From: a virus
Direction: 5' to 3' (one strand)
Length of the DNA: 35,620 nt
IMG/VR virus record: IMGVR_UViG_3300017740_000024
Location: 1 to 35,620 of that record
The position numbers and the translations under genes were made by a program. Position 1 is the stretch's first letter. Each line of letters opens with the position of its first letter. Of the stretch, positions 1 to 25,160 are shown piece after piece. A model generated the notes under the pieces. The model saw nothing but the letters and a program-made list of their open reading frames with translations. It was not told the origin of the DNA and did no database searches.

Positions 1-2607
1 GGACAATTAGAGCATAAGTATCCTGCAGAAGAAGGTGGTATAAAACTATACCCTAGAGAGTGGAAAACCGCCAATACAAAGTATCATAATTTTTTAGATA
101 TAAAGTTATCCTACCCTATTATACTAGTAAAAGATATCAATGACTACAGCCAAAGAAATACATATATAGAAGATTATGTTTGGTTAGTAGATTGGGATTA
201 TAAAGTAAATCACAATTCCTTTGATTGGGTGCCTAATCCTTTTGAGCAAGATATGATACATACATTTCGTATGCCATACCAACTAACAGAAAAGTACCCA
301 CAAGAAATAGGCGGTATAAGACTAGTACCTAAAAAATGGAAAGACGCAGAAATAAAAATACACAAGGACTGCCCTATAGAAGATGAGAACTATGATGTAT
401 TTTATACAAACAAAAAGTTTGATGCTGAAACATTTGAATTTTATACAAAAAGATCTGAAACAAATTGGTTTTGGGTTATTGATAGAGATTACGATTTTAA
501 TGGAAAACTTCTATATGTTCCTGGAAGTCATGAAAAAGAATATATACATGTTTTTAAATGGGGATTGGAGCATAGATACTTACCAGAAGTAACAGAACTA
601 TGGGACGATAGGGTTGCTGGTATATACCTTGTCCATAAAGAGTTTGATTTTACAAAGCAAAAACTACATACAGATATTGTGCCTGTTAGGTATGATATTT
701 TCTTTACAGATAATTTAACTGACTATAATACCTATAGCAGGAAAAGTAGAACAGATGCATTTTGGTTAATAGATTCTGAACACGTTTTATCAGAAACAAT
801 TAAATGGGTACCAGAATATAGCGATCAAAAATATATAAATGTTTTTAAGATACCTAAACAATTAGAACATAAGTATCCACGCAGTATTACTAATGTAAGC
901 GATAATAGATGTGGTGGTATTAAATTAGTACCAAATAATTTTAATAAAGAAGAAGTAAAGTATCAAGGTTTACTGACAGACATAGAGATTATAGAGTTTG
1001 AAAAATTTAGTAGCGAAGAGGAAGGCAGAACAAATACTAAACATGACTGGTTTTGGGTTATAGACCCAGATGTAACTGTAATAGAAGATTTTAATTTTGA
1101 TTTTGTACCAGATACATGGGACGACCAAAAGACTCATGTATGGCAAAAGATAAATCCTATTACAAAAAGACAGTATGATTACAGTGGTGTAATGCTATGT
1201 CCTAAAGTAGCACAAACAAAAGGCAGACCAAAATATATAAGAGAACCTGCATGTATGCAAAACGAATATCCAGTATATTACTTACAGGCATCTGATTACA
1301 AAAATGGCTTACAGAGCGTCTATGAGCGTCTATCAGCACAGTCTGATAGTAATATGTACTGGGTTGTAGATGCTTTTACACAGATAGAACCAGATTTTAA
1401 ATTTAGTTATTACCCTACACAATGGGATCAAAAGTATATTCATGCATTTCTCAACCAAGACAACGCATATACGAGCGTCAGACTGGTGCCTAAACAGATG
1501 TTTTTAAACAATGAATATACAGACAAAGACATAGAAAACAACAGTTTTGAAAACTTAAAACAAATAAATACTATAGCGAGCCTAAGGCCAACATGGCCTG
1601 TGATCCACTTGCAAAGTTTAGAAAAGAACGAGTTTATAAACGCAATAAAGGATATAAAAACCCCCTTTGTTTGGACTATAGACCCAGATGTGAAAGTGGA
1701 TAATAATGTACTCGAACGTGGATATCTGCCTGCAATAACGCAAACTAATAAAGTACATGCATGGCAAAAGCAAAATCCAACCACAAATAAGGTACATGCA
1801 TACGGAGGCTTACGTCTATGGCCTACTACTAATGATTATTCTGACATAAAATCTGATGACTTAAAATTAAACAGAATAAAAAATATAAATTATGTTAAAG
1901 AAATAGGCAGTAAAACTAATACATATGATATTGTATTTTTAAGTTACAAAGAACCTAAAGCAGACAACAAATTTGCTAAACTACAAGACCATCTAAGAAA
2001 TAACGGATTATTGTTTAACCTTATATGGGTAAGAGATGTTGAAGGCATTTTTAATGCACATAAAATTGCATCTACCAGAGTGCAAAGTAAAATGTTTTGG
2101 GTAGTAGATGCTGATGCCGAAATAAAAAAAGATTTTATATTTGATTACATACCAGATGTTTACGATCAAGAAGTTGTACATGTTTGGTCAAGTAAAAATC
2201 CTATCACACAAGATGAATATGGATATGGAGGAGTAAAATTATTCCCTACTGAAATGGTAAGAGAAGCCACATCATGGGGATTAGATTTTACAACAGGTCT
2301 AAGTTCTAGATTTAAATCTATGCCACAAGTTAGTTGTGTCACTAAATTTAATACTGATGCATTTAGCACTTGGAGGAGTGCTTTCAGAGAGTGTGTTAAA
2401 CTCACACTTAACGAAGATGCAGAAAGTAAACAACGTTTAGATACTTGGATAAACACTAGGGGCGATGAGGAGTTTACTGCTGAAGCAGTAAGCGGAGCAC
2501 TAGCGGGGAACCAGTTTGCGGAAGCGAACAAAGATAATCTAGCAAAACTAGATAAAATAAATGACTTTAACTGGATACGACAAAGATATGAAAGCAATAA
2601 TAACTAG
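1..2607 (+). CDS. Multi-repeat glycosyltransferase-A-like protein, 5' partial
   Basis: The frame is open from base 1, so the N-terminus is outside the window; 868 residues are visible. The protein is built of at least seven tandem units of about 95 to 140 residues. Each unit has a hydrophobic strand ending in an acidic motif (W-[VL]-[IV]-D-x-[DE]) and most have a following P-D-x-[WY]-D-x-x-x-[VI]-H-[VA]-[WF] strand and a Y-G-G-[VI]-x-L-x-P loop. The acidic motifs are encoded near bases 181, 463, 757, 1045, 1353, 1663 and 2092. Only the last unit keeps a clean DAD (VVDADAEI); others read DWD, DRD, DSE, DPD, DAF and DPD. The last unit and the conserved C-terminal tail (FNTDAFSTWRSAFREC) match a glycosyltransferase-like family I know from marine T4-like phages. 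I infer sugar transfer to a phage structure or to host glycans, with the inner units perhaps only binding. Its end overlaps the next gene by 20 bp. Confidence 0.6.
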   Translation, partial: GQLEHKYPAEEGGIKLYPREWKTANTKYHNFLDIKLSYPIILVKDINDYSQRNTYIEDYVWLVDWDYKVNHNSFDWVPNPFEQDMIHTFRMPYQLTEKYPQEIGGIRLVPKKWKDAEIKIHKDCPIEDENYDVFYTNKKFDAETFEFYTKRSETNWFWVIDRDYDFNGKLLYVPGSHEKEYIHVFKWGLEHRYLPEVTELWDDRVAGIYLVHKEFDFTKQKLHTDIVPVRYDIFFTDNLTDYNTYSRKSRTDAFWLIDSEHVLSETIKWVPEYSDQKYINVFKIPKQLEHKYPRSITNVSDNRCGGIKLVPNNFNKEEVKYQGLLTDIEIIEFEKFSSEEEGRTNTKHDWFWVIDPDVTVIEDFNFDFVPDTWDDQKTHVWQKINPITKRQYDYSGVMLCPKVAQTKGRPKYIREPACMQNEYPVYYLQASDYKNGLQSVYERLSAQSDSNMYWVVDAFTQIEPDFKFSYYPTQWDQKYIHAFLNQDNAYTSVRLVPKQMFLNNEYTDKDIENNSFENLKQINTIASLRPTWPVIHLQSLEKNEFINAIKDIKTPFVWTIDPDVKVDNNVLERGYLPAITQTNKVHAWQKQNPTTNKVHAYGGLRLWPTTNDYSDIKSDDLKLNRIKNINYVKEIGSKTNTYDIVFLSYKEPKADNKFAKLQDHLRNNGLLFNLIWVRDVEGIFNAHKIASTRVQSKMFWVVDADAEIKKDFIFDYIPDVYDQEVVHVWSSKNPITQDEYGYGGVKLFPTEMVREATSWGLDFTTGLSSRFKSMPQVSCVTKFNTDAFSTWRSAFRECVKLTLNEDAESKQRLDTWINTRGDEEFTAEAVSGALAGNQFAEANKDNLAKLDKINDFNWIRQRYESNNN

Positions 2608-3352
2608 TGGTTGCAGTTTATCTGAACCTAATCATACGGGTACATGGCCAAAGCATTTAAAAGATGCATACAATCCTGAATACATTATTTTATCAGGACA
2701 AGGTTCTATAGGTACAGATTTAATATCAAGAAAAGCAATATATTATTGTAACGAAGCATTAAAACTTTACAAAGCAGAAGAAATTTTATGCGTAGTTGCA
2801 TTTACAACATTACATAGAGCAAGTGGTTTATTTAATGCTCAAGATCCATTACCTACTAAATTAAGGAATCACAAAAATTATATAGAGGATTACGATAGAT
2901 CTCCAACATGGAACCAACAAGGCTGTTATTTCGATTCATCAACATCAGAAAATACTGGATGGTATTTTTGGAATCTGTGGAGAGATCATGATGACTTTGC
3001 GTATTATTTTACATATTACCAAAGTTTTATAAATTTGTTAGAACAATATCTATTTAATATGTTAGCAGTAAAAAACTTTTGTGATGCTAAAGGAATAAAA
3101 TTTGTTTTTATGTTTGCTGAAGGAGATATTCCAAAAAGTTTGTTTAATAATAGAGAACACTGGGCACTGAATCATATGTTTGATGAAATCTTTAATAATA
3201 ATCCATACTATTTGAATGAACCAATATCAACTTGGGTCAAACAAAATTTAGGAGATTCTTATATGGGAGACGAACTACACCCTACATGTGAAGGTCATAA
3301 AATTTATACGGAAAAAGTTTTAATACCACACCTGGAGAAAAATGGAATATGA
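2588..3352 (+). CDS. SGNH-hydrolase-like protein
   Basis: 254 residues. The N-terminal strand with SGCSLSEP matches block I of the SGNH/GDSL fold (nucleophile Ser in a G-x-S setting), and the C-terminal DELHPTCEGHKIY matches block V, where D-x-x-H supplies the catalytic Asp and His. Family members are esterases, deacetylases or O-acyltransferase partners acting on glycans or lipids. I start at the ATG at 2588 because it puts the block I strand directly at the N-terminus, as in the related genes at 4565 and 6521; an in-frame ATG at 2561 would add nine residues. It overlaps the upstream repeat protein by 20 bp and the next gene by 4 bp (ATGA), so all are probably translated from one mRNA. Likely role: adding or removing acyl groups on surface sugars; the substrate is unknown. 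Confidence 0.55.
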   Translation: MKAIITSGCSLSEPNHTGTWPKHLKDAYNPEYIILSGQGSIGTDLISRKAIYYCNEALKLYKAEEILCVVAFTTLHRASGLFNAQDPLPTKLRNHKNYIEDYDRSPTWNQQGCYFDSSTSENTGWYFWNLWRDHDDFAYYFTYYQSFINLLEQYLFNMLAVKNFCDAKGIKFVFMFAEGDIPKSLFNNREHWALNHMFDEIFNNNPYYLNEPISTWVKQNLGDSYMGDELHPTCEGHKIYTEKVLIPHLEKNGI

Positions 3353-4017
3353 TAGAACTGAATAGTTGGAATGAAGTAGAAGAATATATAGATAATAGTT
3401 TTCTACGAATTCCTCCAAGTTATTTTGAAAGAGCAGTAATGGATAGAAGATATCCACGTGATGCTTTTAGTAAAGGACAGTTAGCAAGTAAAAGTTGGTT
3501 GCTTGGTGAACTGTATAAGGTTACACCATTACCTAGCAATACAACTGTAGCATTATTAGGCTGTTGGATAGGCAGTATTGTAGAACCAATGTTAAATGCT
3601 TTAACAATAGAACGTATATATGGAATAGATATAGATGCAGAAAGTATTGAGTTAGCAGAAAAGTTTAATCAAAAACATGTAGCAAACAATTGGAAGTTTA
3701 AAGGTGTAGTTGCTGATTTAGATTTATTAGATTGTAATCATATGGAATTCGAAACAGGTGGAGAATTAATTAAAGTATCACCTGATATTATAATTAATAC
3801 AAGTTGCGAACATATGAGTACAAATTGGTTTGAAACTGCAGGTAGTAATCAGTTAATTGTAATGCAAACAAACGATTCAGAAGAGTTTGACGGGCATATA
3901 AACGTATGTTATACTGCAGATGAAATGCAGGAAAAATATCCATTAAGTAAAACACATTTTGTTGGCAGTTTAAAAACACCAAGTTATACAAGACACATGC
4001 AGATAGGTTATAAATGA
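3349..4017 (+). CDS. SAM-dependent methyltransferase-like protein
   Basis: 222 residues with a Rossmann-type pattern. VALLGCWIGS near residue 68 stands in for the glycine-rich motif I, and IYGIDIDAESIELAEKF about 22 residues later has the acidic end of strand 2 that binds the SAM ribose. DIIINTSCEHM about 60 residues further looks like the motif IV region. Target prediction is not possible: it lacks the NPPY or PCQ motifs of DNA methyltransferases, so small-molecule or sugar methylation fits better. It starts on an ATGA overlap with the SGNH gene and ends on another ATGA overlap with the kinase, which puts it inside the surface-chemistry cassette. It could also be a non-catalytic relative. 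Confidence 0.45.
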   Translation: MIELNSWNEVEEYIDNSFLRIPPSYFERAVMDRRYPRDAFSKGQLASKSWLLGELYKVTPLPSNTTVALLGCWIGSIVEPMLNALTIERIYGIDIDAESIELAEKFNQKHVANNWKFKGVVADLDLLDCNHMEFETGGELIKVSPDIIINTSCEHMSTNWFETAGSNQLIVMQTNDSEEFDGHINVCYTADEMQEKYPLSKTHFVGSLKTPSYTRHMQIGYK

Positions 4018-4568
4018 AAGTAATAAATTTTTATGGTGGACCAAATAGTGGCAAAAGTACTAAAGCCGCAGGGTTATATTATAAAATGAATATGGCAGGT
4101 TATAGTGTTGAACTTAATAATGAGTTTGCAAAAGAATGTGTATGGGAAGATAATGTTCCTATGCTAAAAGATCAATTGTTTATGTTAGCACATCAGCATA
4201 GAAAAATACTTAGGCTTGTTGGTAAAGTAGAATATGTTATTACAGACTCTCCTGTAATGTTAAGTGGTATATATAGGGAACTATATGACGGTCCTTTGTA
4301 TAGCGACTTAATAGATAAACTTGCTCGTGAGTGCTATGACAAATATGAAAACATAAATTTTATGTTAGAAAGACCACCACAGTTTGAACAAACAGGCAGA
4401 GCACAAAATTTTGACGAAAGTATAAACATAGACAATGCAATTTTAGAAATGTTTAGAGATGAAGAAATTCCTTTTTTCCAATTAAAGGCTCCTACAATGC
4501 AGGAAGATCCTTTTTATGTTGCAGTAGATGTTGCATTTAATTATGTTCAAAAACGTAGTAAAAAATGA
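4014..4568 (+). CDS. P-loop ATPase/kinase, AAA_28 (NadR-like) type
   Basis: 184 residues. The Walker A loop GGPNSGKST is at residues 8-16, right after the first strand (INFYGG). A Walker-B-like strand YVITDSPVMLSG follows near residue 75, and an ERPPQFEQTGRAQ segment resembles the Arg-bearing lid of small-molecule kinases (compare the nicotinamide-riboside kinase domain of NadR). This suggests phosphoryl transfer to a nucleoside- or sugar-like small molecule; the substrate cannot be told. ATGA overlaps on both sides (3349-4017 and 4565-5416) place it in the same operon as the SGNH and methyltransferase-like genes. A DNA-repair or packaging role is unlikely given the size and context. Confidence 0.55.
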   Translation: MKVINFYGGPNSGKSTKAAGLYYKMNMAGYSVELNNEFAKECVWEDNVPMLKDQLFMLAHQHRKILRLVGKVEYVITDSPVMLSGIYRELYDGPLYSDLIDKLARECYDKYENINFMLERPPQFEQTGRAQNFDESINIDNAILEMFRDEEIPFFQLKAPTMQEDPFYVAVDVAFNYVQKRSKK

Positions 4569-9058: not shown

Positions 9059-9400
9059 CTATTTTGTAGTTTTATTTAATCCATTTGCTATATTATAGTA
9101 ATGGAAAAAATTCTCCTTATCCATAGGACTTGCAAAGTAAACATATATAGTTTTATGTCCATAAACATCTTCTATATCGTAATAAACCAAGTCTTCAGGG
9201 ACTTCTTTAAGGTAATCAAGTACCGTATCTAGTAACGAATCTTTTTCAGATATCTTAAAAGAAACGTCTGTTCCTTTTACTTTTGTATCTTTTTCGATTT
9301 GTACTCTGACTTTATTTCGCAACATATGGACATATAACTCGTTTCCGTGTAAATTTGCCCAGTCCTCACGAGTAAGAACAGAAGTGTAATTAATCGTCAT
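9059..9400 (-). CDS. Hypothetical protein downstream of the VWA gene
   Basis: 113 residues from the ATG at 9400, which overlaps the VWA gene end by 11 bp; an in-frame upstream start at 9427 would lie deeper inside the VWA gene without a ribosome-binding site. The sequence alternates short beta strands (VRVQIEK, DVSFKI, KTIYVYFASP) with acidic helices and looks like a small alpha/beta domain. No family is recognised. A 60-bp AT-rich gap separates it from the next gene (8982), in which I see no terminator or promoter. Confidence 0.55.
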   Translation of the reverse strand: MTINYTSVLTREDWANLHGNELYVHMLRNKVRVQIEKDTKVKGTDVSFKISEKDSLLDTVLDYLKEVPEDLVYYDIEDVYGHKTIYVYFASPMDKENFFHYYNIANGLNKTTK

Positions 9401-10712
9401 CTCTAGTATATGGTACTGTGATACCAAATGGTGCTACAGGAGTTTTACCTCCGTAGCCTGAACCATGTACAATAAACAAGGTATCACAATAGTTTTCATC
9501 ACCCCAACTACCCCAAGGATAGCCGTCAGTAAACATAATGTGTTTCTTAGGAACAATACCTGCTTCTTTCATGTAATCAAATACACAATCAAACTCAGTA
9601 CCGCCACCGCCTTGAATATCATACTCCATAAACTCTTCCATATTATGAGGTGTAAATGTTACTGGATTATGTACTTCAGTATCAAAACAGAATAAGTGTA
9701 TTCTAAAGTCGTTATACTGATCCATAATACCTTTAACTTCTGATAAAAAGTCACGTAGCATTTCATCATATATGGAACCTGATACGTCCATGGATATTGC
9801 AACATCTATAGTTGTTTCTCTGTCCATTCCTGGCAAGTAAAAACCTTCATTAAGTCCTTTTCTACTAGGATTCATCATAGTGTAATCACTTCTAATAACA
9901 CTCTGTATTTGCATAGCAATTAGTTGTCTCCAATCTAATTGAGGATTTAATAAATGGTCTAATGCTCTTTTTACACCGCCTGGTAAATTACCGGCACCTG
10001 CCGCCTTGGCGGCTTGCATAGTAGCATTTTTAAACTCCTGAGAAATTTGTTCTTTTTCTTCAGCAGTATATTTTGCAGGGCCATCTTTATCGCCACCTTC
10101 AGAGTTGGCTTCACCGCCTTGTCCTTGGGCACCTTCGTCGTCTCCTTCTTCTCTGTCTAAATGCATATCAAAGGATTCAACTTCAATTACTCTGCCTTCT
10201 TCTTCTGCTTGTTTGAACAAATCATCATAAATTTCTTCTGATACCATACCTCTGTATTTCCAATCAAAACAAATTTGTACTAATTTAATCTCCCCTCCAA
10301 TTTTAGCATCAATTAAATCAGCATTAATAACATAGTCATTTGCAATATTCCATAATCGAGGGTCTCTGTTACCACGTCTATTGACATCGAAATGGTCATA
10401 AACACAATGTAATACTTCGTGTCCTATACCAAATACAATCTCTGCATCGCTAAGAGCGGCAACAAAGTTCCTGTTATAATAAAAGTATCTGCCGTCAGTA
10501 GCAAGTGTAGGACACCATTCTGTAGCATCTTTAAATCTAAGCCTAGTAGCCAAGTTACCAAAGAAAGGTGCAGAAATTAACATTTCTATTCTTGCTTTAA
10601 TAAGTTTATCTTCTATTTGCTCAGATGTTAAATCAGTTGCAGGTATTTCAGTTAGAGCCTTTGCAACTCTATCTTTTGCTGTCTCCTGTCTTGCTTGTTT
10701 TGTATCTGACAT
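9390..10712 (-). CDS. VWA-domain / putative metallopeptidase (DUF2201-like), MoxR partner
   Basis: 440 residues. The N-terminal part is a zincin-like domain with HEVLH at residues 98-102 and a further His in YDH. A Gly/Glu/Asp-rich linker (about 185-215) follows. The C-terminal part is a von Willebrand A domain with a MIDAS motif DVSGS at 309-313, a GGGGTEFD loop with the second metal contact and an FTDGYPW strand with the third. Proteins with this layout pair with MoxR AAA ATPases as chelatase-like or folding machines, and phage versions are common in marine myoviruses. The MoxR partner is at 11880-12986. The gene has its own sigma70-like promoter and an AAGGAG site, and the 20-nt leader is identical to that of the MoxR gene, which suggests matched expression. 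Client unknown. Confidence 0.8.
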   Translation of the reverse strand: MSDTKQARQETAKDRVAKALTEIPATDLTSEQIEDKLIKARIEMLISAPFFGNLATRLRFKDATEWCPTLATDGRYFYYNRNFVAALSDAEIVFGIGHEVLHCVYDHFDVNRRGNRDPRLWNIANDYVINADLIDAKIGGEIKLVQICFDWKYRGMVSEEIYDDLFKQAEEEGRVIEVESFDMHLDREEGDDEGAQGQGGEANSEGGDKDGPAKYTAEEKEQISQEFKNATMQAAKAAGAGNLPGGVKRALDHLLNPQLDWRQLIAMQIQSVIRSDYTMMNPSRKGLNEGFYLPGMDRETTIDVAISMDVSGSIYDEMLRDFLSEVKGIMDQYNDFRIHLFCFDTEVHNPVTFTPHNMEEFMEYDIQGGGGTEFDCVFDYMKEAGIVPKKHIMFTDGYPWGSWGDENYCDTLFIVHGSGYGGKTPVAPFGITVPYTRDDD

Positions 10713-10732
10713 TAGTTACTCCTTAATTTAAC
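10713..10732 (-). repeat. 20-nt leader shared with the MoxR gene (copy 1)
   Basis: The minus strand reads GTTAAATTAAGGAGTAACTA immediately before the ATG, identical to the leader at 12989-13008. It contains the AAGGAG ribosome-binding site. Confidence 0.85.
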
Positions 10733-10741
10733 TATACCATT

Positions 10742-10769
10742 ATTATAGCAAAAAAGTGTTAATTGTCAA
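10742..10769 (-). promoter_or_regulatory. Sigma70-like promoter for the VWA gene
   Basis: -35 TTGACA (10764-10769), 16-bp spacer, -10 TATAAT (10742-10747) with a TG extension. The -35 box overlaps the 3' end of the upstream glycosyltransferase-like gene. Confidence 0.8.
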
Positions 10770-11763
10770 GCAGATTTTGTATGTTTTTTCTATTAGTTTC
10801 AGCAACTTTTAAAAAAGTTTGATAATTATGCTCTAATCTAGGCTTGAGACTTTCAAATAATTCAGGTAAATGAGCGTCACCTTTATTAACTAGATCTGTT
10901 ATATTAGATACTATCCATTCTATTCTTTTATGATGATCTGTATAGTTGCAGGTACCAAATAAGTCATCAAAAGTATCGAATCCCCATTCTTTTAGTAGAT
11001 AATATATATTTGTATCACCTAAAATAATAAAAGGCCTTCTGCCTATAATAGGCTTTAACGTTTTTTCCGTTAAAAATACATTTGTATATGTTGTAGTTTC
11101 GCTTACAACGTTAAGAAAGTGATTGTTCCAATTATCCTGATGTCCTAATGAAGTGATATCATTAGTAATACCCACATCTCCTCCTACAGCCTTATCTCCT
11201 TCTTTATTTTTTATGTCTTTTGATAATTTAACTAAGTGATCTCCCCCTAAACTAAGATAGCCAAAATTCATAAGATCATGATCTCTAAGTTGATTTACTA
11301 GTTCAATTCTATGACGATGAGGTTTCCTGTTAAGGCACATATAATACTTCATAGGTATTTTAATATCGTATGTGTTAAATTCTGTAAATTTGTTTAAATT
11401 CTCATATACAAAATCTATCCAAAAACTAAAGTAGTATTTTCCTAAAGTATTGCCAATGTATATAGTATTACATTCACTTAATTTATTATGTAAAAACCCA
11501 TATCTATTTTCCCTGCCGGGCTCTCCATACTGATTATCCCAATCTGGACCACTGTAAACAAAAACTCGTTTGTTATCTTTTTTACAAGTTTCAATAAAAG
11601 CATCAAGTTCGGAGTCATGTTTTGCCCATGTAGTATCAATAAATCCGTCATTATCTGCTAACTGACCTAAAATAATTTTTTTAATTTTAGAATCGTGAAT
11701 ACCTATAATATTAGAAGGCTCTGCGGCTTCTGTGCTAAATCCTTTGTCGTAAATTAGTGGCAT
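10759..11763 (-). CDS. Glycosyltransferase-like protein inserted between MoxR and VWA genes
   Basis: 334 residues. The C-terminal half has VFLTEKTLKPIIGRRPFIILGD, then LLKEWGFDTFDDLF and an Arg-bearing helix (HHKRIEWIVSNI). This is the same pattern as the 5384-6496 protein and similar to GT10-type fucosyltransferase C-domains. The N-terminal half (KRVFVYSGPDWDNQYG) differs. It lies between the two halves of the MoxR/VWA pair, behind the MoxR terminator. It has no Shine-Dalgarno site but has TAAATA exactly 5 nt before its ATG, as does the 5384-6496 gene. The different promoter class suggests it is a cargo gene expressed late. Donor and acceptor sugars are unknown. Confidence 0.4.
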   Translation of the reverse strand: MPLIYDKGFSTEAAEPSNIIGIHDSKIKKIILGQLADNDGFIDTTWAKHDSELDAFIETCKKDNKRVFVYSGPDWDNQYGEPGRENRYGFLHNKLSECNTIYIGNTLGKYYFSFWIDFVYENLNKFTEFNTYDIKIPMKYYMCLNRKPHRHRIELVNQLRDHDLMNFGYLSLGGDHLVKLSKDIKNKEGDKAVGGDVGITNDITSLGHQDNWNNHFLNVVSETTTYTNVFLTEKTLKPIIGRRPFIILGDTNIYYLLKEWGFDTFDDLFGTCNYTDHHKRIEWIVSNITDLVNKGDAHLPELFESLKPRLEHNYQTFLKVAETNRKNIQNLLDN

Positions 11764-11768
11764 AATAA

Positions 11769-11774
11769 TATTTA
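11769..11774 (-). promoter_or_regulatory. TAAATA late-type element, leaderless
   Basis: TAAATA on the minus strand, 5 nt before the ATG at 11763, no ribosome-binding site. It is the same geometry as at 6502, 6510, 15501 and 33737. Confidence 0.45.
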
Positions 11775-11783
11775 CCTTATAAA

Positions 11784-11811
11784 GAAAAAAATCCCCCAGT
11801 TGCCTGGGGGA
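11784..11811 (-). terminator. Rho-independent terminator after the MoxR gene
   Basis: An 8-bp GC-rich stem (TCCCCCAG 11792-11799 with 11804-11811) and 4-nt loop, followed on the minus strand by a run of seven T. A second, longer inverted repeat of 10 bp (11814-11823 with 11852-11861) lies just upstream between the MoxR stop and this hairpin. Confidence 0.85.
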
Positions 11812-11879
11812 CCAAACTAGAGATTCTTAGGTAGGGAGTAACATAGGTAGGTCTCTAGTTTTTGAAATTTGCCTCTCCC

Positions 11880-12986
11880 TTAGGCGATATACTTTGTGTA
11901 CCTCTCACTAAAAGTTTTGTGAAGTTCTTTATCAAGATCAGTTCTTACATTAAATCTAATCTGATAGTCCTTCATAATTGTCTTAAATAAGAACACAACC
12001 ATTTCTGGTTCAAAGTTGTCATAACTAAATCTAACAACATTGTTGAGTGCTTTTCTAAACTTGTCGTCAATACCTGAGTCTTTAAACATTTCGTTAAGCT
12101 CATATGCAAGTCCAACTACAAGTGAATACTTAGCAGATATTTCTTTAGACAGTTTAGTGTCTAGTTTTTTAACTTCTCCGCCTATAATTTGATCAGGGTT
12201 AGGAAGTTTAGAAGCAATCTTTCTGTGTTCTACAAACTTAATTGCCATTCCTTCTCCAATAGCACCTGCTATCTCGGCCTTCTGTTCAAATGCTTCTGCA
12301 TTGTCGAAGCCATCTGCCGCTAACATTTCACTTACAAAAGTCCAACTTCTTGGTGTTGCAAAAGATTGTGAACTACTTTTTGCATCAAAGTCAAAAAGAT
12401 CGCCTTTAGAGAAACTTAAATAACCTATTACATCAGGGTGTACACTATTTTGCATAGCCCATTGTGACCAGTCTTCAAAGTTTACTTCCATATTAATATG
12501 TCTAAACCTGTTAGCCAACGGTGCCGGCATTCTATATGTAACACCTCTGTCAGTCTCTCTATTACCTGCGGCAATAATTCTAACATTATCAGGTAATTTG
12601 TATTGTCCAATTCTTCTGTTCAATACTAATTGATAAGCCGCCGCCTGTACACTAGGAGGTGCTGAGTTAAGTTCGTCCAAAAACAATACCACATTGTCAT
12701 ATGAAGCGGCAAGGTCTTGACTAGGCAAGTCACTTGGTGGGCTCCATTCCATTTGATTTGTTTCAGGGTTTCTAAAAGGGTACCCTCTTAGATCTGTTGG
12801 CTCTAATAATGCCAACCTCATATCAATCATTAAAGCATTGCCTAGTTCACCTTCGTCAACTAGTCCTTGCACTAATTCTGATTTACCAATTCCAGGTGCT
12901 CCCCAGATAAAAATTGGTCTATTAACCTTTAAAGCCCTTAAAATAATTGGCTTTACTGATTTTGCTCTTACGTTTAATGTTTCCAT
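11880..12986 (-). CDS. MoxR-type AAA+ ATPase
   Basis: 368 residues. Walker A GAPGIGKS is at 29-36, Walker B VVLFLDE at 99-105, followed by LNSAPPSVQAAAYQLVLNRRIG typical of the MoxR/AAA_5 group. Sensor 1 is in RIIAAGNRE, and the Arg-finger region is near NRFRHI. MoxR ATPases remodel protein complexes together with VWA-domain partners; here the partner is at 9390-10712. The substrate in phage infection is not known. It has a sigma70-like promoter, an AAGGAG site and a strong terminator, so it is a single-gene unit. The 20-nt leader matches that of the VWA gene exactly. Confidence 0.85.
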   Translation of the reverse strand: METLNVRAKSVKPIILRALKVNRPIFIWGAPGIGKSELVQGLVDEGELGNALMIDMRLALLEPTDLRGYPFRNPETNQMEWSPPSDLPSQDLAASYDNVVLFLDELNSAPPSVQAAAYQLVLNRRIGQYKLPDNVRIIAAGNRETDRGVTYRMPAPLANRFRHINMEVNFEDWSQWAMQNSVHPDVIGYLSFSKGDLFDFDAKSSSQSFATPRSWTFVSEMLAADGFDNAEAFEQKAEIAGAIGEGMAIKFVEHRKIASKLPNPDQIIGGEVKKLDTKLSKEISAKYSLVVGLAYELNEMFKDSGIDDKFRKALNNVVRFSYDNFEPEMVVFLFKTIMKDYQIRFNVRTDLDKELHKTFSERYTKYIA

Positions 12987-18815: not shown

Positions 18816-19709
18816 CTAAGTCCCCCAAGCATTACCAAATAAATTGATATGCAATCTGGGACTAAACTTGTAGCCTGTCTTCATACAGATTTCTGCTACA
18901 TCTTTTTCTGTTAGTGTTTGTTGTTCTAATGTTGCACCTTCAGGCATTAAAAATACACTATCTATTTTTACACCTGCGTCTTTATATGCACTAACAAATT
19001 TATCAACATCTGGTAAGCATAGTTCGTCACGTACTACAAATTTATTATATAAAAAACTATTTTCGACTTCGTTCATTGTTACTAACTGTTCTGGTATTAG
19101 TGTGTCTTCTAGCAACTCTCCACTTATAGACAGTTTAGGAGATGTACTCCAAGTAACATGTAAGTCTTTTGCTTCTTCATTAAAATAATTAATTAATTCT
19201 GGTGTTACAGCCTTGGAGCCATTTGTTTCAAATGTAACATTTATTAGTCCTACCTCTCTGCACATATTAAGAAGTGCTGGCCAAACACGTTGCCACCCTA
19301 GTAGCGGTTCACCACCTGTGATCACCAAGTGTATGTCTTCACCGTGTTGGCCAGTGAAAGTGCCATTAGGTATCAAAGATGTGATGTGATCAAACACTTC
19401 ATCTGCAGATCGAGTCATTTGCAAATGCTTATATTTCTTCGACCAACTGGCACTAGAATCACACCCAATAGGTGTGACAGGTAATTCTTCAATGCTTTTA
19501 TAAGCATCTGGGTGTTCTTTATCCGCTTTAGGATCTGTAAAGTAAGGCATTTTATCAGAAGCAATCATTTTACCACGTTCTTGTCCAAAACCTGCACATT
19601 CAAAATTGCAACCAAATACACGCAGGAATATACTAGGCACACCAACAAATCTGCCTTCTCCTTGCACACTATAAAATGCTTCGCTATATCTTAATTTAGG
19701 TTGCTTCAT
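18816..19709 (-). CDS. queE: 7-carboxy-7-deazaguanine synthase, radical SAM
   Basis: 297 residues. The N-terminal SEAFYSVQGEGRFVGVPSIFLRVFGCNFEC is the QueE signature, with ITGGEPLL near 129 for SAM binding and FETNGS near 158. QueE converts 6-carboxytetrahydropterin to 7-carboxy-7-deazaguanine (CDG). The iron-sulfur cysteines are not the standard C-x3-C-x2-C: C34 and C38 are present, the third position is Phe41, and the likely third ligand is C83 in IGCDSSASW, after a roughly 40-residue insertion. I recall phage QueE proteins of this layout. It overlaps the 172-aa gene by 14 bp and shares a transcription unit with folE. Confidence 0.85.
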   Translation of the reverse strand: MKQPKLRYSEAFYSVQGEGRFVGVPSIFLRVFGCNFECAGFGQERGKMIASDKMPYFTDPKADKEHPDAYKSIEELPVTPIGCDSSASWSKKYKHLQMTRSADEVFDHITSLIPNGTFTGQHGEDIHLVITGGEPLLGWQRVWPALLNMCREVGLINVTFETNGSKAVTPELINYFNEEAKDLHVTWSTSPKLSISGELLEDTLIPEQLVTMNEVENSFLYNKFVVRDELCLPDVDKFVSAYKDAGVKIDSVFLMPEGATLEQQTLTEKDVAEICMKTGYKFSPRLHINLFGNAWGT

Positions 19710-20214
19710 CCTGTTCCTTCATAAACTCTACAAATAATTCTTCATCAAATTGTTCGTCTGTAATATCCATTATAGCATTATATACTATAAGATGCAAGTC
19801 ACTACTTTCATAACCTACACTATTATTTAACACATCTTCAAAGGATTCTATTGCACACATACGAAATCCTTTATCATATAGCATATTAAAGTCTGCTTCT
19901 TGAGGTAAAAATATTTTACCAAATTGTATAGTTTTAACAAAAAATGTATCAGACATTTGTCTTGTTTCTATAGTAACTTTACCTACTTCGTCACTACCAT
20001 TATTTAACTCTAAATGGATACCATGATCCAAATTGTCTAAATCAGCAATACAGTCTATACACTCCATAACCTCATCTGGCTTTAATGGATATCTTGAACA
20101 TATATAATCCATATCCTGTCTGTCACAAACTGCATTAGTAACCTCTCTAACAGGTACTGCATGTCTGCCTAGTACTAAATGGCCATTACGAGTATTAATC
20201 ATTAGGTTCCGCAA
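19696..20214 (-). CDS. Unknown protein between folE and queE, DUF433-like N-terminus
   Basis: 172 residues. The N-terminal HLVLGRHAVPVREVTNAVCDR followed by YICSRYPLKPDEVMECIDCIAD resembles the small DUF433 helical domain (G-x-R-[IV]-P-V, then Y-P-x-L-x-x-[ED]-[DE]-[VI]). The C-terminal part is acidic and helical (DEQFDEELFVEFMKEQDE). It overlaps folE by 13 bp and queE by 14 bp, so it is locked inside the 7-deazaguanine operon and may serve that pathway. Homology to DUF433 is by eye and weak; no catalytic motif is visible. Confidence 0.55.
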   Translation of the reverse strand: MRNLMINTRNGHLVLGRHAVPVREVTNAVCDRQDMDYICSRYPLKPDEVMECIDCIADLDNLDHGIHLELNNGSDEVGKVTIETRQMSDTFFVKTIQFGKIFLPQEADFNMLYDKGFRMCAIESFEDVLNNSVGYESSDLHLIVYNAIMDITDEQFDEELFVEFMKEQDEAT

Positions 20215-20891
20215 GAATGTTGTTGCTGTAGTTTAATATTATCAAAAAACTCTTTCTTAGTACTTTGATCTTCCATAAATCTACCTTCTAAAACAGTTGT
20301 TTGTGTTAAACTGCTATGTGCTAATACACCTCTGTTCTCTACGCAACCATGTGTTGCTTGTATGTATACACCTAAATTTACACTACCTGTTGCTTTTTTA
20401 ATTTCTCTAGCAATATCATTTGCAAGTTCTTCTTGTAATGTACCACGTCTAGCACACCATTGTGCAATTCTAGTATACTTAGAAAGCCCTATAAGAGTTT
20501 CTCCTGCAATAATACCTATGTATGCAGTACCTTTAACTGGCTGATGATGGTGCGAACACATACTTAGTATTTCACTTCTCACAACCAACATGCCTTTATA
20601 ACCTTCTTCTATATCATTAGGAAATGCTGTAGCATTAGGCATGTTATTGTATCTGCCCCACATAAGCTCATTAATATACATCTTAGCAAGACGTCTAGCA
20701 GTACCTTGACTGTTGGGATCATTATACCTATCAATAATTAGTGTGTCTAAAATACCTTCAAAATGCGGAATAAGTTCTTCAATCAACTGTTGATCATCAC
20801 CTTCATCCATAAACTCAGAAACATTATCACTAGCCCAATACTTATGACCTGCTTCTTTAATTCTTTTAGTTATTTTTTCACTAACTTTCAT
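20202..20891 (-). CDS. folE: GTP cyclohydrolase I
   Basis: 229 residues, the normal length. MCSHHHQPVKGTAYIGII at 111-128 contains the zinc and substrate residues (C112, H115). GVYIQATHGCVENRGV at 174-189 contributes H181 and C183. QEELANDI near 153 matches the family helix. The enzyme turns GTP into dihydroneopterin triphosphate, the first step to 7-deazaguanines and also to folate. Company with queE downstream and queD and dpdA in the next unit points to the 7-deazaguanine route. It overlaps the DUF465 gene by 11 bp. Confidence 0.9.
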   Translation of the reverse strand: MKVSEKITKRIKEAGHKYWASDNVSEFMDEGDDQQLIEELIPHFEGILDTLIIDRYNDPNSQGTARRLAKMYINELMWGRYNNMPNATAFPNDIEEGYKGMLVVRSEILSMCSHHHQPVKGTAYIGIIAGETLIGLSKYTRIAQWCARRGTLQEELANDIAREIKKATGSVNLGVYIQATHGCVENRGVLAHSSLTQTTVLEGRFMEDQSTKKEFFDNIKLQQQHSCGT

Positions 20892-21081
20892 CTTCCATTT
20901 CCTTAATTTTATTTTTTAACTCTTCTATTTCTCTTTTAAGGGTAAGTTTCTCTAACTTTTCCTGCCTAATTTTATCATCACTATCATGATGTTCCCAATG
21001 CCTTGTAATTTTCTTATCTAGTTCTCGGTGTATGTCTTCCAAATGTTTTAAATGATTTGTTAGACTTTGTACCGTACTCAC
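20881..21081 (-). CDS. DUF465/YdcH-like coiled-coil protein, GTG start
   Basis: 66 residues. HLKHLEDIHRELDKKITRHWEH, then a Lys/Glu-rich helix with KLEKLTLKREIEELKNKI, follows the DUF465 (YdcH) helical-hairpin pattern. I start at the GTG at 21081, which overlaps the phosphoribosyltransferase stop (GTGA) and has AGGAG 8 nt upstream; GTG codons at 21087 and 21090 are too close to that site. Function of the family is not established. It is sandwiched between the phosphoribosyltransferase gene and folE with overlaps on both sides. Confidence 0.6.
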   Translation of the reverse strand: MSTVQSLTNHLKHLEDIHRELDKKITRHWEHHDSDDKIRQEKLEKLTLKREIEELKNKIKEMEDES

Positions 21082-21569
21082 TTCCACCACTCCTCATAAG
21101 GAAATACAATCCATTTTTCTTCTTCTGGAGTAACTACATTACCTGTAAAACTTACATACTCAAATGCACTACTCTCTTTATCAAATAGTGTAGCATACTT
21201 TATGCCTTCATGCAATGCCAATAGGTTATTATTTTCTTGTGAGTCCCATAAGTCAACTACACCTTTAATACCATTTAAAGTATGCCCTGAATCATTTATG
21301 TCATCAACAAGTAAAATATCATCACTACTGTATTTAGACAGAATTGTTTCCAACCTAGTGGATTCCTTGATCATTTCATGATCTCTAGTTTGCCATTCAA
21401 AGCCATGGAAAGGAACTTCAAAGTAGTGACTTAGCATTACGCCCATTACATAGGCTCCTCTGCCAGGCCCAATTACTACATCAGGTTTAAAGCCACTTAC
21501 ATGGATTTGTCTTGTTATTTCGCTTAAATCTTTTTCAAGATCTGTGTTAGAATAATATAGTTTCGCCAT
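21078..21569 (-). CDS. Phosphoribosyltransferase (purine type)
   Basis: 163 residues. DDILLVDDINDSGHTL at about 84-99 is the PRPP-binding motif of type I phosphoribosyltransferases (two acidic residues followed by D-[ST]-G-x-T). DVVIGPGRGAYVMGVMLSHY near 30-49 is the pyrophosphate loop region. The size matches xanthine/guanine or hypoxanthine PRTases. A role in making GMP for the downstream folE would fit. It is the first gene of the unit. Its sigma70-like promoter places the transcription start at the ATG itself and there is no ribosome-binding site, so the message should be leaderless. Confidence 0.75.
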   Translation of the reverse strand: MAKLYYSNTDLEKDLSEITRQIHVSGFKPDVVIGPGRGAYVMGVMLSHYFEVPFHGFEWQTRDHEMIKESTRLETILSKYSSDDILLVDDINDSGHTLNGIKGVVDLWDSQENNNLLALHEGIKYATLFDKESSAFEYVSFTGNVVTPEEEKWIVFPYEEWWK

Positions 21570-21575
21570 AATAGT

Positions 21576-21603
21576 ATTATAGCAGAAAAGAGTTTGATGT
21601 CAA
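21576..21603 (-). promoter_or_regulatory. Sigma70-like promoter giving a leaderless phosphoribosyltransferase mRNA
   Basis: -35 TTGACA (21598-21603), 16-bp spacer, -10 TATAAT (21576-21581) with a TG extension. Only six bases (ACTATT) separate the -10 from the ATG at 21569, putting +1 at or next to the A of the start codon. Confidence 0.8.
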
Positions 21604-21604
21604 G

Positions 21605-22570
21605 TTATTTTTTACTTGAGGATTGGTACTCGATTTCTGTCTTTACAATGTCCTCTAAAGAGTTTGCGGGTTCCCAGCCAAACAAATCCATTGCTTTCGA
21701 AATGTTTGCATCTGTTTTGGCGGCATCGCCTTCTCTTTTAGGACCGTATTCAACATCAACTGTATTACCAGTTTGTGCTTCTACTTCTGCTATGACTTGT
21801 TTGATACTTTTAGGTGAGCCTGCTCCAATGTTAAACACACCACTTTCTCCACCATCAAAAAGATAATGTAGTGATGCCAGATGGGCAGTTGCTATATCTA
21901 ATACATGAGTATAATCTCTAATACAGGTACCGTCTATTGTGTCGTAATCATCTCCATTAACAACAAACTTTCCTCCATTAAGTGCCTTATCAACTAAAAT
22001 AGGCATTATGTGTTCTTTTGGATCTAATTGATATCCAAAACCTTCATAACTACCTGCGGCACAAAAGTATCTTAAACTGTTATAATTAAAATCGTGTACT
22101 GCTGATAAATCTTCTAATATAGTTTCCACCATTGCTTTAGTTCTACCATAAGGTGTTTTAGGATTTATGTCATCTATTTCTGAGTTAAGTAAGTTGTCTG
22201 AATCACCATAAACAGAACTAGAACTACTAAACACAAAGTTTTTAACACCGCCGTCTATTGCATGATTTAATAACTTGATAGAGTTTTCAACATTGTTGGA
22301 GTAATATACTTTTGCTTCTGCAATACTTTTAGGTACACTATGATTTGCGGCCAAATGTATAATTGCATCTGGCTTTGTCATTTCTATAACACCTTTAATT
22401 TGAGAGTTATTAATATCAAATGGATATTGTGTTACACCTTCTATAGTTCTTTTTACTCTATCAACATTTATAACATTAAAACCAGAGGCTACAAGTAACT
22501 TACAGGTTACACCACCTATAAAGCCACTACCTCCTGTTACAAGTATTGTTTTATCTTCGTTACTGCTCAT
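21605..22570 (-). CDS. galE: UDP-glucose 4-epimerase-type sugar-nucleotide epimerase
   Basis: 321 residues, an extended short-chain dehydrogenase. VTGGSGFIGG at 12-21 binds NAD. HLAANHS near 75, a Ser-rich FSSSSSVYG near 120 and the catalytic pair in TPYGRTK (Y-x-x-x-K) near 143-147 are all present. RYFCAAGSYEG near 170 matches the GalE substrate loop. It interconverts UDP-glucose and UDP-galactose or a related UDP-sugar. It starts on an ATGA overlap with the glycosyltransferase gene, so it probably supplies its donor. It is the last gene of the unit that begins at the clamp promoter. Confidence 0.8.
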   Translation of the reverse strand: MSSNEDKTILVTGGSGFIGGVTCKLLVASGFNVINVDRVKRTIEGVTQYPFDINNSQIKGVIEMTKPDAIIHLAANHSVPKSIAEAKVYYSNNVENSIKLLNHAIDGGVKNFVFSSSSSVYGDSDNLLNSEIDDINPKTPYGRTKAMVETILEDLSAVHDFNYNSLRYFCAAGSYEGFGYQLDPKEHIMPILVDKALNGGKFVVNGDDYDTIDGTCIRDYTHVLDIATAHLASLHYLFDGGESGVFNIGAGSPKSIKQVIAEVEAQTGNTVDVEYGPKREGDAAKTDANISKAMDLFGWEPANSLEDIVKTEIEYQSSSKK

Positions 22571-23568
22571 ACAGGTTCTCCTGTCTTATCTCCTTCTCCA
22601 AACCAAGTTATCATAACTTTGTCTGTGTCTAAGACTATTTGTTGCTCTTGATAATTGTTTATCGCATCGCAAACCATATCCACACTTTCATCAAATCTGT
22701 CATATAGTTTTACATCTGGATATAATTCAGGATAAACTAATCTGTTAGGTAATACAGGTGTACAACCTAAGTAAACGGCTTCTGCAACACCAAAGCCAAA
22801 GTTTTCTTGTAAGGCATAACTTACTACTGCCTTACTCCTGCCTAATAAATCATAGTATTCTTCTTTACTATAGTTCATATCTTGTGTCCTGATAAACTCA
22901 ACATTTTCAGTTATTCTTTCATTAACTTGCTTTGCAAGTTCATTAAATAACCAAGGTTGTTTCTCATCACATATTCTGCCATTAAAGACAACAATGTTTT
23001 TCTTTGTTTGTCCTTTGTGAGGATCTAAACCACTATAGTCTACAGGTAAACCAGATACAACTAGTTTATTAGGATCTATCATTCTTTTCTTTATAATATC
23101 ATTTTTAATAAAATTACTTGCACAATAAATTGTGTCGCTAATATCAAAAATAATATCTTCAAAGTTCTTTGCCCAACGTTCCATGTCGCGAACAAAATCA
23201 GTATCTGTAAAACTACCTGCATGTATTAAGCCTGTAATTTTAAGATTATCCATTTTATTAAAGTATTTCATATATGCAATACTTTCTATTCCTGGGAACC
23301 AAATATCACTAAAAAACAAAGTGTCACCATCTGTAATAACACCACGTTCTATCATATCTGATATTTCTGCAATCTGTAAGGCTTTAAATTTACTTGTAAA
23401 AGCAGAATTTAAAAACTGTCCTTCAGGCAATGGAGGAGTATCATAAGTAGGCATAATTTTAATATACTCAATATTTTCACGAACAAGATATTCCTCAATG
23501 GCAATATCCATGTGTATTGTGTATCTACCTTCAATATGCTCTAGTGGCACATATATTAACTTACTCAT
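22567..23568 (-). CDS. GT4/GT1-type glycosyltransferase
   Basis: 333 residues with a GT-B layout. The C-terminal domain starts near KKNIVVFNGRICDEKQPWLF. SYALQENFGFGVAEAVYLGCTPVLPN at about 258-283 is the donor-binding E-x-F-G-x-x-x-x-E-A motif. The Rossmann-like N-terminal domain includes DTLFFSDIWFPGIES and LIHAGSFTD. The acceptor is unknown: it could be a virion protein, a host surface glycan or a modified DNA base. The ATGA overlap with galE and an 8-bp overlap with the small gene upstream indicate cotranslation. Confidence 0.7.
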   Translation of the reverse strand: MSKLIYVPLEHIEGRYTIHMDIAIEEYLVRENIEYIKIMPTYDTPPLPEGQFLNSAFTSKFKALQIAEISDMIERGVITDGDTLFFSDIWFPGIESIAYMKYFNKMDNLKITGLIHAGSFTDTDFVRDMERWAKNFEDIIFDISDTIYCASNFIKNDIIKKRMIDPNKLVVSGLPVDYSGLDPHKGQTKKNIVVFNGRICDEKQPWLFNELAKQVNERITENVEFIRTQDMNYSKEEYYDLLGRSKAVVSYALQENFGFGVAEAVYLGCTPVLPNRLVYPELYPDVKLYDRFDESVDMVCDAINNYQEQQIVLDTDKVMITWFGEGDKTGEPV

Positions 23569-23707
23569 CTCCTAAATCTCCATAGTCAACAACATCAGTA
23601 ATCTTATCGTCTAAACTTTGTGCAAAGTCGCCTTTCTTATCTGCTTCTTCTTTGCTGATAATATTAGGCTTAGATTCTGTATTACTACTGTCGTTTTGTT
23701 TTTCCAT
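23561..23707 (-). CDS. Tiny acidic protein (48 aa)
   Basis: 48 residues, MEKQNDSSNTESKPNIIS followed by KEEADKKGDFAQSLDD and an acidic end (VVDYGDLGDE). The start overlaps the stop of the histone-like gene as TAATG, and the end overlaps the glycosyltransferase start by 8 bp, so it fills its slot exactly. No family is recognised; it is probably disordered. A GGAGA-like site for the next gene lies inside its end (TTAGGAGATGAG). Confidence 0.6.
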   Translation of the reverse strand: MEKQNDSSNTESKPNIISKEEADKKGDFAQSLDDKITDVVDYGDLGDE

Positions 23708-23883
23708 TACATTGAGTTTCTTTTATCTTGAATCTCTGTTCGTCTTGTTTTAGCAAGTTTAGTGAATTCCATAAGTGCCTTTCTTGCTCTAGTAGAACTT
23801 GCTTTTACACCGTTCTGCTCGAACTTGTCGTGCTCTGCTAAATATGTTTCAAATGCTACTTTTAATTGTAAATGTGTTTCCAT
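23707..23883 (-). CDS. Histone H1-like (Hc1-type) DNA-binding protein
   Basis: 58 residues from the ATG at 23883, which has AAGGAGA 6 nt upstream; an in-frame start at 23934 would overlap queD. FETYLAEHDKFEQNGVKASS followed by TRARKALMEFTKLAKTRRTEIQDKR matches the N-terminal helical domain of Hc1/H1-like bacterial histones (D-x-x-K-F-x-x-x-G-x-K-A-[AS]-x-x-R-x-R-K-A-L). The long basic tail seen in chlamydial Hc1 is missing. Role: DNA compaction or nucleoid remodelling, inferred. Its position between queD and the glycosyltransferase is notable. Confidence 0.6.
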   Translation of the reverse strand: METHLQLKVAFETYLAEHDKFEQNGVKASSTRARKALMEFTKLAKTRRTEIQDKRNSM

Positions 23884-23893
23884 TATTTTCTCC

Positions 23894-24268
23894 TTAATTA
23901 TTAACTGGATATTCCATTTCGCAACCGTTTTCATTATCTTCGGCTACTGAAATCCTTACATAACGACCTGGATACCTGTTGGTAATCTCTGCCGCTAAAT
24001 CATCTGCGATCATCTCGCATGACTTGTTATTAAGTTGTACAACGTCTTCGTTGTATAAACTTTCAAGCCATCTCTTAAATTGTATAAACTCAATGTCTCT
24101 GTCATCATGAAACACTTCTATCCATACTTTAAAATGGAATATGTGTCTGTGTTTATACCCTAAAAAACTTACGTCATACTCATCACCTGTTGCTGTAGCA
24201 GGATTCGTGTCTGCTCCAGGATAAAAATGTATGCCCTCTTTACTAAATGTTATCCAAATACTTCTCAT
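23894..24268 (-). CDS. queD: QueD-like 6-carboxytetrahydropterin synthase
   Basis: 124 residues, the usual QueD length. The T-fold pattern is visible: KHRHIFHFKVWIEVF with H40, H42 and H45 (zinc ligands in the H-x-H-x-[FY]-x-[VL] strand), IEFIQFKRWLESLY in place of the DF-x-x-L-K helix, NNKSCEMIADDLAAEI in place of the P-T-x-E-N helix, and VRISVAEDNENG with the C-terminal catalytic Glu. The first His strand is less canonical (EGIHFYPGAD). It would convert dihydroneopterin triphosphate from FolE to the QueE substrate. The gene starts 3 nt after the 47-aa gene. Confidence 0.65.
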   Translation of the reverse strand: MRSIWITFSKEGIHFYPGADTNPATATGDEYDVSFLGYKHRHIFHFKVWIEVFHDDRDIEFIQFKRWLESLYNEDVVQLNNKSCEMIADDLAAEITNRYPGRYVRISVAEDNENGCEMEYPVNN

Positions 24269-24271
24269 ATA

Positions 24272-24415
24272 TTAACTCCCAAAACCTAGTTGGCCTTTAA
24301 GCCAAGCATTTAAATCTTCACTCTTTTTCTGTTCTTCTTTACGGTCTTTATCTGCCCAACCACTTTCAATATGTAGTCCTGCTGGCATTTTAGTTGCTTC
24401 TTTTACTTCTTTCAT
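24272..24415 (-). CDS. Small hypothetical protein (47 aa), leaderless
   Basis: 47 residues reading MKEVKEATKMPAGLHIESGW, then a Lys/Glu-rich helix and a C-terminal NAWLKGQLGFGS. No family is recognised. It is supported by a TTGACA-16-TACAAT promoter whose -10 ends six bases before the ATG, the same leaderless geometry as the phosphoribosyltransferase gene, and by tight spacing to queD. It therefore probably heads an internal transcript covering queD, the histone-like gene, the glycosyltransferase and galE. Confidence 0.55.
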   Translation of the reverse strand: MKEVKEATKMPAGLHIESGWADKDRKEEQKKSEDLNAWLKGQLGFGS

Positions 24416-24421
24416 AGTATT

Positions 24422-24449
24422 ATTGTAACACCTTGTGTTTGTTTGTCAA
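24422..24449 (-). promoter_or_regulatory. Sigma70-like internal promoter, leaderless for the 47-aa gene
   Basis: -35 TTGACA (24444-24449), 16-bp spacer, -10 TACAAT (24422-24427) with a TG extension. Six bases (AATACT) separate it from the ATG at 24415. Confidence 0.7.
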
Positions 24450-24477
24450 TATAAAATCTGCCTTCTTCATACTTTAT

Positions 24478-24654
24478 TTACAGTTTATCAAGTTCTTCAA
24501 TCAGTTCTTCTGGTATTTCTGCACCATTTTTTATGAGAAATTTAAACAGTAAAACTACTAATCCTTGAATATCTTCCTCATATTGAAAATCTCCGTCATA
24601 TGAGGCAGATGTTTCAATTCCGTCATCGTCTGTTGCTGTAATATCTATTCTCAT
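24478..24654 (-). CDS. Small acidic protein (58 aa)
   Basis: 58 residues: MRIDITATDDDGIETSASYD, then a helix (DIQGLVVLLFKFLIKNGAEI) and a Glu-rich end. It starts on an ATGA overlap with the 168-aa gene, which supports it as real. No family is recognised. The strand-strand-helix order would suit a small alpha/beta adaptor. A 62-bp gap with the internal promoter follows. Confidence 0.55.
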   Translation of the reverse strand: MRIDITATDDDGIETSASYDGDFQYEEDIQGLVVLLFKFLIKNGAEIPEELIEELDKL

Positions 24655-25157
24655 TCTACTGGCTTATCGCCTCCATCAGAGTATTTAGACCAAGGAATAA
24701 AATGCTCTTTGTCTAATACATCTTGTAATTGCATTGACCAAGTACCTTCATTAGTTTGGTCAAACCCTTTATCAGCAATCTTAAATGCTGTATTGAAATT
24801 GTATTTAGACGAATTAGGTAAAACAGCAGTTATAACAGGTATAAAATTGCTATAATCATGCAAACCCATTTTAAATATATCTTCACAATACTTAACTTCA
24901 AACTCTAATGTTACTTTAACACCGTTATCGCATAAATGTAATAATAGCTCTTCCCAAAGTTTCCATTGATCAAATCTGTCTGGATCAAAGTAACACAAAT
25001 GTATGTGAGTACATTTTTCATTAAATGCTCTACTTAAAATTTCTTGTACTGGTTGCCAGCCTGCTACAAACAAAGTTTCTTCACCTTGTGCAACTGTATG
25101 CTCTACTTCTTTGCCTACAAAGAACTTTACGTCATTAAAATTAGGTTTATCTTTCAC
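24651..25157 (-). CDS. Unknown protein directly downstream of dpdA, GTG start
   Basis: 168 residues from a GTG at 25157, three bases after the dpdA stop, with GAGG about 10 nt upstream inside dpdA. It has alpha/beta character: TLFVAGWQPVQEILSRAF, THIHLCYFDP, a helix, VKVTLEFEVKYCEDI, FIPVITAVLP. The C-terminal FNTAFKIADKGFDQTNEGTW resembles a segment I recall from marine phage hypothetical proteins. No QueC (S-G-G-x-D-S) or amidotransferase motif is present, so it does not replace QueC in any way I can see. Tight linkage to dpdA makes a part in base modification plausible. Confidence 0.6.
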   Translation of the reverse strand: MKDKPNFNDVKFFVGKEVEHTVAQGEETLFVAGWQPVQEILSRAFNEKCTHIHLCYFDPDRFDQWKLWEELLLHLCDNGVKVTLEFEVKYCEDIFKMGLHDYSNFIPVITAVLPNSSKYNFNTAFKIADKGFDQTNEGTWSMQLQDVLDKEHFIPWSKYSDGGDKPVE

Positions 25158-25160
25158 TTA

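Follow-up and report, generated by a model that had tools for sequence, protein, structure and literature searches.

A viral protein in which one complete GT-A glycosyltransferase domain follows an array of truncated, very probably non-catalytic relatives of that domain

In O-GlcNAc transferase (OGT) and SPINDLY, repeats located ahead of the transferase domain select substrates. The repeats of OGT are of the TPR type and its transferase has a GT-B fold, whereas in the array protein described here the repeats are derived from the transferase itself, which is of the GT-A type; OGT is an analogy and not a relative. Collagen lysyl hydroxylase LH3 (PLOD3) and the mimivirus protein R699 contain an active GT domain beside a GT-fold domain without GT activity, as we propose for the array, and the accessory domain of LH3, reported to be non-catalytic, has been suggested to aid substrate recognition (PMC6082870). 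However, these proteins have one accessory domain that follows the catalytic one, whereas the array has 7 to 17 truncated units that precede it. Tandem-fold alignments of the LH3/R699 type to residues 530-786 of the array protein gave rmsd values of 10-12 Å, and PLOD-type domains showed no sequence match to it. We regard LH3, OGT and the chondroitin polymerase K4CP as analogies rather than as members of the same family. No paper on a comparable array of GT repeats was found in a search of the open-access literature.

The stretch of viral DNA analyzed here (the window; 35,620 nt, IMG/VR record IMGVR_UViG_3300017740_000024) starts inside the array gene. The open reading frame occupies positions 1-2607 of the plus strand, and 868 aa are visible; the 5' end lies beyond the window edge, where the contig cuts the gene. 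The nearest full-length relatives (L001 and L010) have 1018 aa and nine units. The 3' part carried by the window comprises seven full units and the tail of an eighth, which are numbered here according to the family. The tail, of unit 2 (positions 1-108, residues 1-36), is cut by the window edge; it corresponds to the last part of unit 2 in L005, and to the same region in L001. It is followed, all on the plus strand, by unit 3 (112-363, residues 38-121), unit 4 (388-669, residues 130-223), unit 5 (688-966, residues 230-322), unit 9 (988-1263, residues 330-421), unit 10 (1264-1584, residues 422-528), unit 11 (1594-1920, residues 532-640) and unit 12 (1924-2604, residues 642-868). Their motifs at the DxD position are DWD, DRD, DSE, DPD, DAF, DPD and DAD, respectively, exactly as a preliminary description of the sequence had listed them. 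The first Asp of these sites is at residues 64, 161, 258, 355, 457, 561 and 703, and the spacings between them (97, 97, 97, 102, 104 and 142 aa) bear out the earlier count of at least seven repeats of about 95 to 140 residues. The description of the metal motifs as decayed needs correcting in that DWD, DRD and both DPD motifs formally fit D-x-D. DNA tandem repeats were not detected in the array gene by TRF, which argues that the units are old; an assembly artefact is ruled out by this absence and by the equal order of the units on many independent contigs. The linker after unit 9 (QTKGRPKYIREPACMQN; window 1213-1263, residues 405-421) ranks with the best conserved parts of the array in 43 sequences, and surpasses much of the GT domain in conservation.

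A hidden Markov model (HMM) of the unit detects every unit in the window protein (E values of 3e-23, 3e-20 and 2e-23 for units 3, 4 and 5, respectively). Because this test is partly circular, a single-domain HMM was built whose sole input was 35 stand-alone proteins no longer than 240 aa, none of which contains an array. Against this HMM, the upstream 641 aa scored 127.9 bits with six significant matches, while the best of 1000 shuffled sequences scored 8.7 bits. The individual scores were 54.3 bits (E 6e-19) for unit 9, 36.6 for unit 10, 24.6 for unit 11 and 11.5 for unit 3; units 4 and 5 are weak individually (5.6 and 5.7 bits). Given the weakness of the single scores for units 3-5, their assignment draws also on the unit HMM, on their regular spacing and on the structural model. 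The upstream units are thus homologous to the GT-A domain of their own family. Their matches span only positions 39-132 of the 223 in the HMM, which identifies them as an internal fragment of the domain, about 90-110 aa long and without its C-terminal third. Searches of the Pfam, PHROG, NCBIfam and PDB sequence families gave no match above the cut-off for the array family, and a PDB sequence profile search gave nothing credible. No match was obtained by tblastn of named phages with the array, the terminal domain and the stand-alone domain, and an HMM search of the carbamoyltransferase loci in Phage C48C1, S-SSM5 and pelagiphage Mosig revealed no relative. A link to TET/JBP-associated DNA glycosyltransferases, considered as a candidate, was supported by no Pfam match.

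An AF2 model computed with 43 arrays in the alignment had a pLDDT of 86 and a pTM of 0.59, the latter meaning that the relative placement of the units is uncertain; a model computed with only six close sequences (pLDDT 47) was discarded. In each upstream unit the model predicts strand-helix-strand(D)-strand(H)-strand(GG)-strand. The last unit shows this arrangement too, and adds a beta-alpha element ahead of the DxD strand as well as a C-terminal block of helices. The upstream units keep the core from the DxD strand to the GG strand, but one beta-alpha element is missing from them, as are the AH helix, the YGxGGxK loop and the FRE block, so that neither the HMM coverage nor the model gives a complete GT-A domain upstream. 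Residues 641-785 superpose on GT-A proteins with Z scores of 10-11.5, mostly with an rmsd of 2.7-3.9 Å over 130-145 residues, and the terminal unit thus has the GT-A (nucleotide-diphospho-sugar transferase) fold. For units 3-10, a GT-A-like fold is suggested by sequence homology and the predicted strand order, residues 1-531 being barely covered by the fold search. Of the units in the window, only the last is a complete GT-A domain, with a Z of about 11 for the model. The terminal unit shares its fold and DxD with the GT-A enzymes B4GALNT1, WrtF, TarS and SpsA and with the nucleotidyltransferase IspD of the same fold; however, its sequence identity to GT-A proteins is 8-17%, and AH, YGxGGxK and WRxxFRE are particular to the array family. 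Two BFVD entries from uncultured Caudovirales phages, A0A6J5LK21 and A0A6J5L5L5, match almost the entire array in Foldseek (E 8e-42 and 1e-39, respectively); these apparent members were already deposited, and are listed as uncharacterised.

The best reading of the protein, to which we give a little better than an even chance, is that one active GT-A domain stands on a non-catalytic platform of mini-GT units that serves in acceptor binding or scaffolding in a glycan-decoration operon. The C-terminal GT-A domain, as the sole complete catalytic unit, would take the sugar of an activated donor and pass it to an acceptor. The upstream units would form an extended platform that recognizes or positions the acceptor or partner enzymes, with its reach set by the number of units. 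The accessory domain of LH3 is a precedent that supports such a platform (PMC6082870).

The genes around the array suggest that its product acts in an operon building a decorated glycan. A carbamoyltransferase gene (PF02543/PF16861) is present upstream of all 43 long arrays for which upstream sequence exists, and a methyltransferase-like gene downstream of 40 out of 43, counts that include near-duplicate loci and are not all independent. The former adjoins the array in nearly all cases, the latter usually overlaps its neighbor by 4-52 bases, and the order carbamoyltransferase-array-methyltransferase is conserved. Radical-SAM/SPASM genes are common upstream of long arrays. In the window, an SGNH-like gene recognized by eye only (2561-3352, plus strand) overlaps the end of the array gene and lies between it and the methyltransferase-like gene (3349-4017, plus strand), whose weak Pfam methyltransferase matches are below the cut-off; an SGNH-like homologue occurs at this place in three of 39 long-array loci. 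Next comes a P-loop kinase-like gene (AAA_28; 4014-4568, plus strand; PF13521, E 2.9e-10), which is found downstream in a minority of long-array loci.

Searches of IMG/VR for relatives found seven loci with the window protein, at least 592 with the terminal domain and 51 with the array. In each of the 43 related arrays, 9 to 18 units follow one another in a fixed order, which for long arrays reads 1-2-3-4-5-[0 to 3 of 6-8]-9-10-(11-10)n-11 or 9-12, and those with a complete 3' end all finish in the complete domain. The family forms a size series of about 225 aa (one unit), 344-369 aa (two), 441 aa (three), about 550 aa (four) and 957-1953 aa (8-18 units). The first unit of short arrays spans HMM positions 1-116 and is an intermediate that has lost the C-terminal half and still keeps the beta-alpha element. 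The probable origin of the array is a C-terminally truncated copy that lost one beta-alpha element later and was expanded at two sites. The family shows an enzyme fold that was reduced stepwise to a small repeat module and multiplied before one intact copy, with intermediates persisting in other lineages (1, 2, 3, 4 and 8 to 18 units). Streptomyces, Photorhabdus, Bdellovibrionales and other bacterial genomes contain complete single domains, in a few cases two of them fused; none of the bacterial genomes with relatives contains an array of truncated units. It is possible, and we put it forward tentatively, that viruses made of the truncated GT-A core, a fragment of a glycosyltransferase, a repeat-protein scaffold that can be extended to as many as 17 units and that determines the acceptor and the distance for a single active domain. 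If the array does bind the acceptor, it would be a natural modular specificity device for glycosylation. The platform reading also offers a likely function for a large protein family of aquatic phages and bacteria that is matched by no family library.

Some relatives deserve separate mention. In another lineage, repeats of this kind have expanded separately and recently to give an array of eight units (L041:2884-5754), of which units 2-6 are mutually 63-74% identical. Streptomyces has, on many chromosomes and some plasmids (L157, L159-L183 and other loci), a complete relative of about 234 aa with a single domain; it has no library match, and most plasmid records call it a "hypothetical protein". 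In many contigs, the gene for the single domain or short array is immediately preceded by a second paralogue, which is about 297 aa in length and has a longer C-terminus (L006:7957-8847, L067:1956-2846 and similar).

The variation in unit number also bears on an alternative in which the array serves only as a structural rod or spacer, for instance a tether to a complex or to the virion, without acceptor recognition. Unit numbers of 1 to 18 with local duplications are what a length-tolerant spacer would show. On the other hand, 525 out of 538 units have their best match in another array (the 13 exceptions are in L124, L126, L096 and L041, which show recent local duplications), and such individual signatures exceed the need of a mere spacer. 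Moreover, the neighbors are enzymes and not structural genes. We consider a rod unlikely, although a role that is purely structural would also be compatible with the conservation seen in the array.

Catalytic positions were compared over 42-43 arrays. All units have an invariant or nearly invariant first Asp in DxD (the lowest count, 35 out of 43, is in unit 9), and six of the seven units, all but unit 5, retain the His that precedes the W/F of HVW/HVF by two residues. At the third DxD position, Asp is invariant in no unit but the last (42/42). In the upstream units this position is Asp in 7/42 arrays for unit 3, 20/42 for unit 4 (Glu in 19/42), 28/43 for unit 9 and 34/42 for unit 11, but never in unit 5 (0/42; Glu in 39/42) or unit 10 (0/43), so that an intact DxD is absent from units 5 and 10 and variable in 3, 4, 9 and 11. 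D703 and D705, at the end of the central strand, are present in 42/42 arrays and invariant in 22 diverse members. In the last unit, E651, AH (686-687), DAD (703-705), YGYGGVK (740-746) and FRE (795-797) are conserved in 38-42 of the 42 arrays, and AH, YGYGGVK and FRE are confined to it. Since the third DxD position and these three motifs are intact only in the last unit, the upstream units are very probably not catalytic. The idea of one active unit after a row of inactive copies is supported in that the intact GT-A unit comes last and the upstream copies lack essential parts of the active site, but the copies are not full GT-A domains.

These positions also argue against the upstream units being a nucleotide-sugar binding array, one of the roles that the preliminary description had envisaged, that would serve as a donor reservoir for the terminal enzyme. 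The nearly universal first Asp and His would suit such a role, but the third DxD position is variable, and E651, AH and one beta-alpha element, which lie on the nucleotide side of the fold, are missing upstream. With these N-terminal elements lost or shortened and the metal-ligand Asp lost or variable, donor binding by the repeats is improbable. Even less probable is a modular polymerase, with different sugars transferred by several of its units, comparable to the two-domain K4CP. K4CP does top the Foldseek list, and units 9 and 11 often retain DxD together with the W, N and GG positions. However, exactly one FRE and one YGxGGxK motif are present in 56 of the 58 arrays of two or more units, and the short upstream units are missing the C-terminal third of the domain.

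To call the copies decayed, as had been done, is misleading. Pairwise NG86 estimates of dN/dS for the array are about 0.06-0.2, rough values because some dS are large, and are below those of the GT domain in eight out of ten pairs. The reading frames are open in all arrays. Mean identity across arrays is 0.58-0.65 for units 3, 4, 5 and 9, unit 9 being among the most conserved, and 0.45-0.49 for units 10-11, compared with 0.65 for the catalytic core, so that most units are conserved comparably with the core. The array is under purifying selection and the repeats are not decaying; that they are functionless relics of duplication evolving neutrally, for which the loss of catalytic motifs in all upstream units might speak, is contradicted by these data and almost certainly wrong. 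The copies are strongly conserved, which makes it probable that they have a task, for example gripping the target, and are not remnants in decay.

Other genes of the window provide some context. The DNA polymerase that it encodes has its closest counterparts in very large phages (Phosso, Atu_ph07 and 121Q), and relatives were found on contigs of 250-340 kb, which suggests that the window is derived from a large phage. A GTP cyclohydrolase I gene (20202-20891; PF01227, E 3e-37) lies, within window positions 18816-26693, beside QueE-like and Tgt/DpdA-like genes that were recognized by eye only and have no Pfam or PDB sequence match; this set suggests synthesis of 7-deazaguanine for DNA or tRNA modification. 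Finally, the region 9390-12986 contains a putative metallopeptidase/vWA gene (DUF2201, PF13203, PF09967) near a MoxR-like AAA ATPase gene (phrog_1297).
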